Assembly: GCA_020341835.1 (NCBI GenBank)
Contig: CP070838.1
Location: 2,437,309-2,472,735, forward strand
Origin: Thiotrichales bacterium
GTDB lineage: Bacteria > Pseudomonadota > Gammaproteobacteria > SZUA-229
Reading direction: 5' to 3'
DNA length: 35,427 nucleotides
The notes beneath the pieces are model-generated. The model was not told the DNA's origin, made no database searches, and worked only from the letters and a program-made list of their open reading frames with translations. The first letter of the stretch is position 1. Every line of letters starts with the position of its first letter. Positions 12,749-16,114 of this stretch are shown piece after piece. Position numbers and translations under genes: made by a program.

Positions 12749-13435
12749 TCAGGCGGCAGACTTTTTCGCGACATTATCACGCAGATAAACCGGCACCGCC
12801 TGCGCCGCTGCCACGGTACGGCCCGCCTGATAGTCAACCACGGCCAGCCTGGCGATCGAATCGGCTGATGGCAGGCAGTCACCGAGTTGCGCTGTCAGGC
12901 GTTCAGCGCCAACCGCAGCCGTCAATACATCGCCATAGGCTGACCAGCCGGTGCCGGCACCGGTCCAGCCCCTGTCTTCGCTGACCGGGACCTGCTCCGG
13001 CGCGGTCACGTGCTCCTTTCCATCGAGCTGCATACAGCCATTCTCTGACAGCCGGTACGCACCCCAGTAGACTTCATTCATGCGTGCATCGATAGCAGAC
13101 AGTACCTGTGCTGCACCGGACTGCAGGTGTGCTGTCTGCGCGATCGCCGCCAGGGTGGACACGGGCACCACCGGCAGGTTCCAGGCAAAAGCGATACCCT
13201 GGGTAACACCGGCCGCAATCCGCACACCCATGAATGAACCCGGCCCACGACCGAATGCGAGCGCATCCAGCTCGGCCAGCCTGATGCTGGCATCGGTCAG
13301 CAACTGCTCGATCATCGGCAGGATGATATGACTGTGTTCTCTGGGTGCCACGCGGTAGTGCTGACTGACCTCGCCATCAAGGTACAAAGCGGCAGAACAG
13401 GCTTCCGTTGCGGTATCGATTGCCAGTATTTTCAT
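12749..13435 (-). CDS. tsaB: TsaB, tRNA threonylcarbamoyladenosine (t6A37) synthesis subunit
   Basis: A 228-residue ASKHA-fold protein that works with TsaC, TsaD and TsaE to make t6A37 in ANN-decoding tRNAs. The N-terminus MKILAIDTATEACSAAL is the family signature; GRGPGSFMGVRIAAGVTQGIAF near residues 62-84 is the conserved GPGSFTGxRI-like segment. Length matches E. coli TsaB (231). It overlaps the end of yoaA by 4 bases (ATGA), a pairing also seen in E. coli where yeaZ and yoaA are neighbours. Confidence 0.95.
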   Translation of the reverse strand: MKILAIDTATEACSAALYLDGEVSQHYRVAPREHSHIILPMIEQLLTDASIRLAELDALAFGRGPGSFMGVRIAAGVTQGIAFAWNLPVVPVSTLAAIAQTAHLQSGAAQVLSAIDARMNEVYWGAYRLSENGCMQLDGKEHVTAPEQVPVSEDRGWTGAGTGWSAYGDVLTAAVGAERLTAQLGDCLPSADSIARLAVVDYQAGRTVAAAQAVPVYLRDNVAKKSAA

Positions 13436-15393
13436 GCGACAGCCACTTGCACCTGTCCGGAAAAGAATTTTTCGACATCCTTGAACTCTGCTGTCACCGG
13501 CATCGCGGGCAGGCTGTTGAGGAATATCCTGCCGTAGCTTTTGCGGGTAATTCTGGGATCACCGATCACGACAACCCCGCGATCACTGACATCACGGATC
13601 AGGCGGCCAACACCCTGCTTCAGCGCGATCACCGCGCGCGGCAGCTGGTAGTCCATGAACGGCTGACCACCGCTGTCGCGTATCGCATCTATCCTGGCCT
13701 GCATCACCGGGTCACCCGGTGATGCAAAAGGCAGTTTGTCGATGATCACGCACGACAGCGCTTCACCGCGCACATCGACGCCCTCCCAGAAACTGGAGGT
13801 TCCCAGCAGAACCGCATTACCCGCTTCCCTGAAGCGTTCCAGCAACTGGTGTTTGGGATACTCACCCTGCATCAGAATCGGAAAATCCAGCGTACCCTGC
13901 AGCAGTTTCTCGGCAGCATGCATGGCACGGTAACTGGTGAACAGCAGAAAGGCGCGACCCTGGCTGGCGGCGATGACCGGCCTGACCTTATCGATCAGGG
14001 TTTCGTTGAAGGAAAAATCCGATGGCTCAGGCATGTCTTCGGGAAGGTATAGCAGGCTCTGCTTCTGGTAATCGAACGGGCTTTGCCAGGTACCATTATC
14101 GTAGTCACGAATTCCCAGCCCGTTAGCGAAGTGCGAGAAGTCCTTGTTCACCTGCAGGGTCGCAGAGGTAAAAATCCACGATGCCGCAAAATCATCAGTA
14201 TGCTGCCGGAACAGGCTGGATACATCGACCGGGGTTGCATGCAGCATGAAGCTGCGCGACCAGCTCTCAAACCAGAGCACCGACTGCGTACCCTCACAGT
14301 CACCGTCATCGCTCTGCGGGGCGTCTTCGCCAAACTGGGCCAGGCTCTGTAACAGCAGCATGCAACGCTGATGGCACTGATCAAGCCCCCGGCTCCTTTC
14401 CGCGGCGACACCGAGCATCTCGGACAGGTCACGCAAGCATGCCATCAGGGCTTCGAGTGACTGTTTGACAGCCGGTTTGTGCCGTATCTGGGCCCAGGCC
14501 TGGCGTTGGCCGGCCTCGCCCAGTGACAGCCTGAAGTCACGGGCCGAGTTCTCCAGTGATTCTGCATATTCTCTCATCTCGGCCATATCCGGTGCGTCAT
14601 TGACCTGTTCTGCAATCGCGTCCTTCGCCAGACCGATCAGCTGACGGCTACTGACGGAGCGGCCGAAAAACCTGGACGCCACTTCATGTAGCTGATGGGC
14701 TTCGTCAACGATAAATACTTCGGCACCCGGCAGCAGGTCAGCGAAACCGTCCTGCTTCAGGGTCATATCCGCCAGCAGCAGGTGATGATTGATCACCAGC
14801 AGATCCGCATCCAGCGCCTGCTTTCTCGCCTTGACGATATGGCAGTCATTCCAGTGATCGCACTCACCGCCCAGACAGTTCTCCGTCGTCGATGTCACCA
14901 TGGGCCAGATCATCGAGTCTTCAGGAACACTGTCGAGTTCTGAGATATCACCAGTCGATGTGATACCCGACCACTCCCTGACCAGCTGCAGATCATGCTG
15001 CGTGGTTTTGTTGAGGTATCCCAGATGCGGCGCAATATCGAGCCGGTGTACGCACAGATAGTTTGCACGGCCCTTCAACAGGGCGGTTTTCACCGGCGAA
15101 GCCAGCGCTTTCAGCACCAGCGGAAGATCAGACTGGAACAACTGGTCCTGAAGGTGGCGGGTCCCGGTCGAGATAATCACCTTCTTGCCCGAGCGTATCG
15201 CGGGTACCAGGTAGGCAAAGGTTTTGCCAATACCGGTGCCTGCCTCGGCGGTCAGTACGCGCGCCTGATGGATAGCCGCATCGATGGCATCACTCAGGTC
15301 CTGCTGGCTGGCGCGAACCTGGTAACCCTCAATAATTTCCCTGAAGGGCCCGTCAACTCCCAGAATTTCAGACGGCCTGTCGCTAGCCCGCAT
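13432..15393 (-). CDS. yoaA: YoaA, DinG-family ATP-dependent DNA helicase with Fe-S cluster
   Basis: A 653-residue XPD/DinG-like superfamily 2 helicase. Walker A AEAGTGIGKT lies near residues 49-58 and the DEAH box IVDEAHQLHEVA near 230. The four cluster cysteines are in NYLC (about 113) and ENCLGGECDHWNDC (about 172-184). C-terminal helicase motifs include SSFWEGVDVRGEALSCVIIDKLPF and ALKQGVGRLIRD. In E. coli YoaA acts in DNA damage tolerance together with HolC. ATG at 15393 is required because no other start precedes Walker A suitably. That ATG, its Shine-Dalgarno GGTGAG and the first three codons lie in the left arm of a 22-bp inverted repeat, so the present N-terminus was shaped by the element. 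Confidence 0.94.
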   Translation of the reverse strand: MRASDRPSEILGVDGPFREIIEGYQVRASQQDLSDAIDAAIHQARVLTAEAGTGIGKTFAYLVPAIRSGKKVIISTGTRHLQDQLFQSDLPLVLKALASPVKTALLKGRANYLCVHRLDIAPHLGYLNKTTQHDLQLVREWSGITSTGDISELDSVPEDSMIWPMVTSTTENCLGGECDHWNDCHIVKARKQALDADLLVINHHLLLADMTLKQDGFADLLPGAEVFIVDEAHQLHEVASRFFGRSVSSRQLIGLAKDAIAEQVNDAPDMAEMREYAESLENSARDFRLSLGEAGQRQAWAQIRHKPAVKQSLEALMACLRDLSEMLGVAAERSRGLDQCHQRCMLLLQSLAQFGEDAPQSDDGDCEGTQSVLWFESWSRSFMLHATPVDVSSLFRQHTDDFAASWIFTSATLQVNKDFSHFANGLGIRDYDNGTWQSPFDYQKQSLLYLPEDMPEPSDFSFNETLIDKVRPVIAASQGRAFLLFTSYRAMHAAEKLLQGTLDFPILMQGEYPKHQLLERFREAGNAVLLGTSSFWEGVDVRGEALSCVIIDKLPFASPGDPVMQARIDAIRDSGGQPFMDYQLPRAVIALKQGVGRLIRDVSDRGVVVIGDPRITRKSYGRIFLNSLPAMPVTAEFKDVEKFFSGQVQVAVA

Positions 15394-15630
15394 TTCTCAC
15401 CAGGATCACGGGAGCAGGCGCAGGATTCGTGTTCGAAAGCGCCGCTCTGGAGCGAAAAGCGTAGCCGCTGCTACGGTTTGAGTGAAGAGCAAGCTTACGG
15501 ACACGAAGACCAGCCTGAACCGTGATAGGCATGCTTGAATTACATACTGTATTTTTTGTCATGCGGACTGTCCCCAAAGAGTCAATGCCTTATCAGCATT
15601 CGACGCCGCCTGGTGAGAAATGCGGGCTAG
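15383..15630. repeat. 248-bp element with 22-bp perfect terminal inverted repeats (MITE-like)
   Basis: Bases 15383-15404 are the exact reverse complement of 15609-15630 (22 of 22; outer end CTAGCCCGCATTTC). Inside, ATCACGG (15405-15411) pairs with CCGTGAT (15520-15526), CGTAGC (15460-15465) with GCTACG (15470-15475), and 15427-15435 with 15498-15506 with one mismatch. The whole can fold into a long stem. It encodes no protein. It separates the TPR lipoprotein stop (15638) from the yoaA start (15393), which lies within the left arm. No transposase is nearby, so it would be a non-autonomous element. Confidence 0.7.
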
Positions 15631-15637
15631 ACATTTC

Positions 15638-16114
15638 TCAAAGGCTCTGCAGGATGGAGATGGCCTTGTTGGCATTCTGCACACCCTCGATGTCATCGAG
15701 CATGTCACTGGCCTCGCGAATGAACTGCCAGTTAAGCAGCTTCAGCTCGACCGAATTGCCGGCATGGCTGTTACTGCGTTTGGCCATTTGAATGGCGCGC
15801 TGCGGGTCCTGCCTGAACAGCGCGATTTGTGAAAGGCGGCTCCAGGCGGGTGCATAGTCGGGTGAAATACGCAGCGCGCGCTCGAGTTTTTCTGATGCGA
15901 CATCGTAGTTGCTCATCGCGATCTGGCTGTCAGCCTGGTTAATCAGATCATCGACCGCGGGTAAAGCATCACCCGAAGCCTGCTGCCAGGTATCCGTGGC
16001 CATCGCCAGCGACGGTACTTCCGCGGTTTCAGGTTTCTGATAACTCGCAGGTGCACAGGATAACTGTGCCAGAATGATGACGGCAACAGCCGTCAGAAAA
16101 ATCTGTCGGATCAT
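15638..16114 (-). CDS. TPR lipoprotein coupled to PBP1B (possible LpoP-like activator)
   Basis: A 158-residue protein. It has a signal peptide ending AQLSC (residues 16-20), a degenerate lipobox, then an unstructured Pro/Glu-rich linker and two to three TPR-like helices (DLINQADSQIAMSNYDVASEKLERALRISPDYAPAWSRLSQIALF...). The ATG overlaps the mrcB stop (TAATG), so translation is coupled to PBP1B. In Pseudomonas, PBP1b is activated by the TPR lipoprotein LpoP. A short TPR lipoprotein tied to mrcB is therefore a good candidate for the same job, reaching from the outer membrane to the synthase. This is inference; sequence identity with LpoP was not tested. The gene ends 8 bases before the inverted-repeat element. 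Confidence 0.7.
   Translation of the reverse strand: MIRQIFLTAVAVIILAQLSCAPASYQKPETAEVPSLAMATDTWQQASGDALPAVDDLINQADSQIAMSNYDVASEKLERALRISPDYAPAWSRLSQIALFRQDPQRAIQMAKRSNSHAGNSVELKLLNWQFIREASDMLDDIEGVQNANKAISILQSL

Follow-up and report, generated by a model that had tools for sequence, protein, structure and literature searches.

A structured, non-autonomous element with IS1380-type ends at the start of yoaA in a Thiotrichales bacterium

Introduction

The effects known for miniature transposable elements (MITEs) in bacteria mainly concern promoters, terminators, RNA stability and peptide insertions. Among these elements, RUP is moved by an IS630 element. The Rickettsia palindromic elements are small palindromic repeats which alter host proteins in frame through the addition of a peptide within genes. 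Correia/NEMIS, RUP, ERIC and other bacterial MITEs are short, non-autonomous, hairpin-forming and dispersed, some of them are fused to genes, and those listed present TA at their termini (PMC2229807, PMC10969869). According to the available part of the article on MITEAba12, the ends of this element share the repeats of a co-resident IS, ISAba12, with a 9-bp duplication, and its authors noted start codons near the termini, as possible fusions and not as starts in use (PMC6382973). IS1380 (NCBIfam NF033539) has been used as the prokaryotic outgroup of the piggyBac superfamily, in which TTAA is duplicated and the tips read CCCT or CCCTTT (PMC10813416, PMC12732532).

Here, we report on a 248-bp unit located at the start of yoaA in a window of 35,427 nt, i.e., the whole stretch of DNA that was analyzed (contig CP070838.1, assembly GCA_020341835.1). 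The unit belongs to a new kind of miniature transposable element, which is structured and linked to IS1380. It resembles Correia/NEMIS, RUP and ERIC in its general build, but differs from them by a YTAR duplication, IS1380-type ends, a covarying core shared across phyla and a start site in each end. As in MITEAba12, its ends are shared with an IS, although the IS and the duplication are not the same. Like the Rickettsia elements, it changes a host protein in frame; however, it replaces the initiation site instead of adding an internal peptide. Its YTAR duplication and CCC tip parallel the duplication and tips of piggyBac. We consider it very probable that a non-autonomous IS1380-type element was inserted in a CTAG of yoaA and gave the gene a new start.

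Results and Discussion

Anatomy of the unit and its family

The original prediction, made from the sequence alone, described a foldable 248-bp unit without a protein gene and with 22-nt perfect terminal inverted repeats, and all of this was found again. The arms (15383-15404 and 15609-15630) are 100% complementary and 204 nt apart, ORFs within 15383-15630 are only short or antisense, and a folding energy of -117 kcal/mol was computed for the minus-strand RNA, its shuffles giving -82.4 +/- 4.7 (z = -7.4). As had also been stated, the left arm carries the Shine-Dalgarno sequence and first codons of yoaA, reading on the minus strand GGTGA (15401..15397), three spacer bases, ATG (15393..15391) and CGG GCT AG-, and the right arm stops 7 bases (15631-15637) short of the stop codon of the TPR gene, which ends at 15638. 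The GGTGA is complementary to UCACC, near the 3' end of the 16S rRNA. The features are collected in Table 1.

Table 1. Features of the element and its surroundings in the window.
Feature	Position	Strand	Basis or remark
Entire element, non-autonomous, 248 bp with the two CTAG copies	15383..15630	+	Read core-first on the plus strand
CTAG on the yoaA side, one copy of the target-site duplication	15383..15386	.	YTAR boundary and 4-mer permutation, 79 copies
Terminal inverted repeat CCCGCATTTCTCACCAGG, IS1380 type	15387..15404	+	Minus strand carries the putative ribosome-binding site and start codon of yoaA
Element-supplied ATG, inferred start codon of yoaA	15391..15393	-	No other ATG/GTG/TTG before the conserved domain
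GGTGA, Shine-Dalgarno-like, GG 6 nt before ATG	15397..15401	-	Read from sequence
Conserved structured core, model R1	15401..15533	+	136.9 bits in window (the window copy is itself part of the model); covariation
Most conserved core hairpin, AAGCGTAGCCGCTGCTACGGTT	15457..15478	+	Covariation
Variable linker	15534..15608	+	66% pairwise identity in genus
Second terminal inverted repeat	15609..15626	-	Arm complementarity
CTAG, second target-site duplication copy	15627..15630	.	YTAR boundary and 4-mer permutation
Original yoaA ATG, severed from the gene by the element	15632..15634	-	In-frame excision
Putative leader ORF of 13 codons, MSSPHFSPGGVEC, which starts at the original ATG and runs into the element; expression not shown	15593..15634	-	
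yoaA (DNA repair helicase YoaA), 653 aa, MRAS N-terminus from element and target site	13432..15393	-	NF053712, 863 bits
Upstream TPR protein gene; TGA stop at 15640..15638	15638..16114	-	Gene order same in relatives

The unit is far beyond chance, since the search of its whole length against its own genome, one of the checks originally suggested, returned 36 alignments. With up to 3 mismatches, 36 arms were counted in the genome of the window (G000), 334 in G002, 71 in G003, 35 in G005 and 565 in G006, and a reversed-pattern control gave 1 match overall. These assemblies are mostly drafts, and that of the window is scaffolded, with N runs at some copies. The full-length element was not found in the other genera sampled (58 relatives), and plasmids and phages gave no match to it. 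Full-length relatives are present in assemblies of Acidobacteria, Ca. Versatilivorator and Thiodiazotropha. A text search did not find the arm sequence in the literature. The criteria of a MITE are met, as the element is short, lacks a transposase, has inverted ends, is dispersed in many copies, duplicates its target and has empty sites (yoaA, tusA).

Conserved core

The 133-nt core recurs in related elements of several phyla with different IS1380-type ends, and of the 274 genomes of the class, 26 were found to carry it with model R1, often in several copies and with varied CTAGCCC-type ends. Within the genus, pairwise identity reaches 89% in the core and 90-92% in the arms, the linker being much lower (Table 1). 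The covariation analysis (A2, 17 cores) gave 91.1% of cells paired and two-sided changes in 21 of 27 pairs, with a score of 0.617 against 0.236 for shuffled alignments, above all shuffles and slid controls. With the core no less strictly conserved than the ends, a role in the spread of the element itself, at an unknown step, is probable and is the simplest reading.

It is also conceivable, though rather unlikely in our opinion, that the core acts above all as a structured RNA with a function of its own, for which the ends are merely the vehicle. The compensatory changes across phyla, the conservation of the core, like that of the ends and not of the linker, and the presence of the same core with different IS1380-type ends would fit such a role. 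However, the core belongs to no known Rfam family (Rfam 15 gave no match at gathering score, and at E up to 5 only a chance-level match outside the element), no promoter-like site was found in the element, and two loci carry 49-bp elements without any core. Such short forms suggest that the core may not be strictly needed. The strand preference in the shared pairs is only mild (G-U 68 vs. A-C 45), and these counts could not be used to decide between an RNA and a DNA role. In G022 (L035, L041), the same core was observed in elements with a different end, CTAGCCCGAATGTTGCATGAAAC, and without an in-frame outward start.

Insertion at yoaA and at other genes

When the element and one CTAG were excised in silico, the junction read TGA-GAA-ATG-TCT-AGC-GAC-AGG-CCG, in frame, with a native ATG 3 nt after the TPR stop codon. 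The insertion point is the CTAG across yoaA codons 2-3 (ATG-T^CTAG^C), and the start changed from MSSDRPSEIL... to MRASDRPSEIL..., i.e., MRAS for MSS, with one codon gained. A 15-bp deletion of the native ATG, considered from the comparison with G002, was dropped because exact excision gave this in-frame native start. The YoaA model NF053712 aligns from residue 9, whereas yoaA has no further in-frame ATG/GTG/TTG until about codon 71; hence it is the arm that supplies the start. Initiation of YoaA at the element-borne ATG remains inferred, as there are no expression data.

In the sister species G003 and G005, the gap between the TPR gene and yoaA is empty, measures 14 to 15 nt and holds the native ATG (MSKPSELLG, MNKPAELLG). 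Thus, the proposal that a mobile element had rebuilt the N-terminus of yoaA, which a single copy in a conserved arrangement would have refuted, is supported by the multiple copies, the exact boundaries, the target duplication and these empty gaps. It had missed the IS1380 family and the native start on the far side (15634..15632), as well as the core common to other phyla and the supply of start codons at other genes.

Inheritance of the yoaA element from an ancestor shared with G002 appears improbable. The gap of G002 does hold another element, in the same orientation and followed by a similar GACAGGCC, but this copy has diverged strongly and lies on the TPR stop codon (TTTAACCC), outside yoaA. 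Moreover, the closer relatives G003 and G005 are empty at this gap, and the window copy is 91% identical to G006 copies at other sites, all of which speaks against such inheritance. In G006, the gap retains CTAGCCCGAATGTTGCAC, which resembles the ends of the G022 elements.

Each end of the element reads outward GGTGAGAAATGCGGG-YTAR, a putative ribosome-binding site and ATG in frame GYT-AR, so that an in-frame insertion in the early codons would give a gene a new start. A second case was found at tusA. The intact empty site is present in G003 (ATGTCTAGTTACAAACTG), where the CTAG doubles as the stop codon of the upstream gene, and in G000 and G005 the element occupies the same CTAG (...GGTGAGAAATG(C/G)GGG-CTAG-CTACCA(A/G)CTG), with an element-supplied start ATG(C/G)GGGCTAGC. 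The multiple copies, the boundaries, the duplication, the empty sites of relatives, the sole start codon and this tusA event are all read from sequence comparison. The two sides of the G000 tusA insertion (L010, L356) are far apart in the scaffold and the tusA copy adjoins an N run, which reflects either a scaffolding error or recombination between copies.

Frame-0 ORFs were then compared with those of the other open frame at genus ends. Among 25 distinct frame-0 ORFs without a near alternative start, the Pfam domain begins before any other start in 6 (yoaA, tusA, gspH, Rieske, STAS and NUDIX); the 28 ORFs of the other open frame include none (p = 0.008). Some of the frame-0 candidates had been chosen by eye ahead of the Pfam scan, and the remaining genus ORFs were scanned afterwards. 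In raw counts, long frame-0 ORFs were not in excess in the genus (17 vs. 20), owing to the predominance of antisense open frames, and the frames were told apart only by the test controlled with Pfam. Judging from sequence, start supply also occurred at tusA, in two species with an empty site in a third, and at about four more genes of the genus. Beyond the genus, PabC-like (L131), hydantoinase (L139, Acidobacteria) and ParE-like (L227) genes have the same look. The lpxA gene of G006 (L304:723-1505) begins MRAKPVIHETAIID, with its ATG in an element arm; the gene could alternatively start at a GTG, codon 6.

Target site and mobiliser

Similarity among the 79 copies with good arms stops exactly at YTAR, and the flanks are random beyond. 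The left and right 4-mers are the same in 51 of 79 copies, against 35.9 by shuffling (0/20000 shuffles reach this), which indicates a 4-bp target duplication; the unequal 4-bp flanks of the other 28 copies count against it. On this basis, the target is YTAR, mostly CTAG, with 4 bp duplicated. TA is nearly invariant (74/79 at each side), and identical non-CTAG 4-mer pairs number 10 for 1.75 expected; the 4-mer permutation test rules out a duplication of TA only.

The ends of the element are IS1380-type transposon ends, as judged from their match in another family of the class. There, locus L236 carries an IS1380 with an intact transposase gene (406 bits to NF033539), 1745 bp long from CTAG to CTAG, in which one arm is an exact match (0 mismatches in 21) and the other has 2 mismatches in 21. 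In the sister species G002, a truncated IS1380 lies at the edge of a contig and its end is related (4-mismatch arm). No IS1380 transposase was recognised in G000, which is about 82% complete, and co-occurrence of the core and the IS1380 transposase across the 274 sampled genomes did not exceed chance (2 genomes, p = 1). Since a lost or unassembled copy is possible in G000, mobilisation by IS1380 is stated as inferred, and movement in trans is not shown. Our element has no transposase, and L236 lacks the core; the element is therefore not a simple deletion derivative of L236, and an origin by internal deletion of this matching IS1380 was rejected.

Mobilisation by a transposase of another family, either IS630/Tc1-mariner, with a TA duplication as for RUP, or IS5-group, with YTAR, seems very improbable. 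It could account for the near-invariant TA, and DDE_Tnp_1 proteins do occur in the genus. However, no DDE_3 (IS630) protein was found in seven genus genomes, whole 4-mers match between the sides above shuffling, including the non-CTAG pairs, no convincing arm was found at DDE_Tnp_1 loci other than the IS1380 copy, and the exact arms sit on an IS1380. An IS630-type MITE (RUP, Correia-like) was rejected, as the 4-mers match beyond TA and DDE_3 is lacking in these genomes. Neither the anatomy nor the YTAR duplication suggests a REP/REPIN with a RAYT transposase (RAYT was not searched). IS1380 remains our inferred mobiliser.

Translation of yoaA

According to the proposed mechanism, the element inserts at YTAR and duplicates 4 bp, here the CTAG of yoaA codons 2-3. 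In the mRNA, the yoaA start site is predicted to pair with the far arm. Folding gave this site an unpaired probability of 0.001 when folded, 0.54 with the leader stretch held open and 0.38 for the reconstructed empty junction. We hypothesize that ribosomes translating the 13-codon leader from the old ATG could expose the start site and couple yoaA to the upstream gene; folding predicts a dependence of yoaA on leader translation, which would be fed by the upstream stop codon. The hairpin control of yoaA translation originally suggested is thus plausible and compatible with the folding model, without expression data. That the unit is only a local regulatory hairpin of the yoaA operon, not mobile, is scarcely credible: the strong fold and the almost fully paired start site would favour it, but the dispersed copies and the empty sites of sister species rule it out as a full explanation, and copy flanks are unrelated past YTAR.

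Stop codons and significance

A frame of at least 100 codons ends exactly on the TAR of YTAR at 49 of 181 genus ends (6 and 3 for the other two frames) and at 54 of 165 ends outside the genus (16 and 14). Per copy, this represents 43% (genus) and 48% (others), whereas 17% of the CTAG sites in the background are stops. The window holds 16 CTAG for 65.7 expected, a four-fold depletion. A special targeting of stop codons was not retained, as the frame bias in the genus is confounded by CTAG depletion and background stops; with CTAG depleted and 17% of background sites already stops, target choice plus selection suffices. The orientation bias relative to neighbouring genes (12 vs. 6) was not significant.

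Judging from sequence, one element family has repeatedly replaced host translation starts, with empty sites giving the state before and after. Dense insertion arrays may be tolerated because the target is rare in genes, is often a stop codon and is restored by duplication. More broadly, a cross-phylum superfamily of IS1380-type elements of about 250 bp, with a module for their own spread (an RNA or DNA device) and, in one lineage, self-healing ends, is possible, and we put it forward only tentatively. If this were true, YTAR would restore stops and the built-in ribosome-binding site and ATG would restore starts, and insertion into operon junctions would cost the host little. The covarying core makes it testable whether structured modules, of RNA or of DNA, are retained by MITEs, and gene-start annotation is affected in genomes carrying such elements.

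The length of the copies varies, the shortest being a 49-bp perfect palindrome, and at the other extreme are compound copies, in which a second element lies nested about 44 bp inside the outer one. Two identical palindromes of 49 bp, perfect and consisting of arms only, lie at two different loci of G006 (L098:1613-1661 and L099:1551-1599). The nested element measures about 168 bp or more, has IS1380-like ends (AGCCCGCATGTCTCACCAGATGG) and keeps a fixed position in the outer copy; this compound form recurs across several loci and genomes (L002, L008, L089, L096, L102). Some copies contain GCGCCTTTGCGAGAG / CTCGCAAAGGCGCAAAG repeat arrays (interiors of L013, L017 and L018). Finally, tandem copies at L304 and G006:C277:94-587 share or overlap one YTAR, as expected if one copy had inserted into the end of another.
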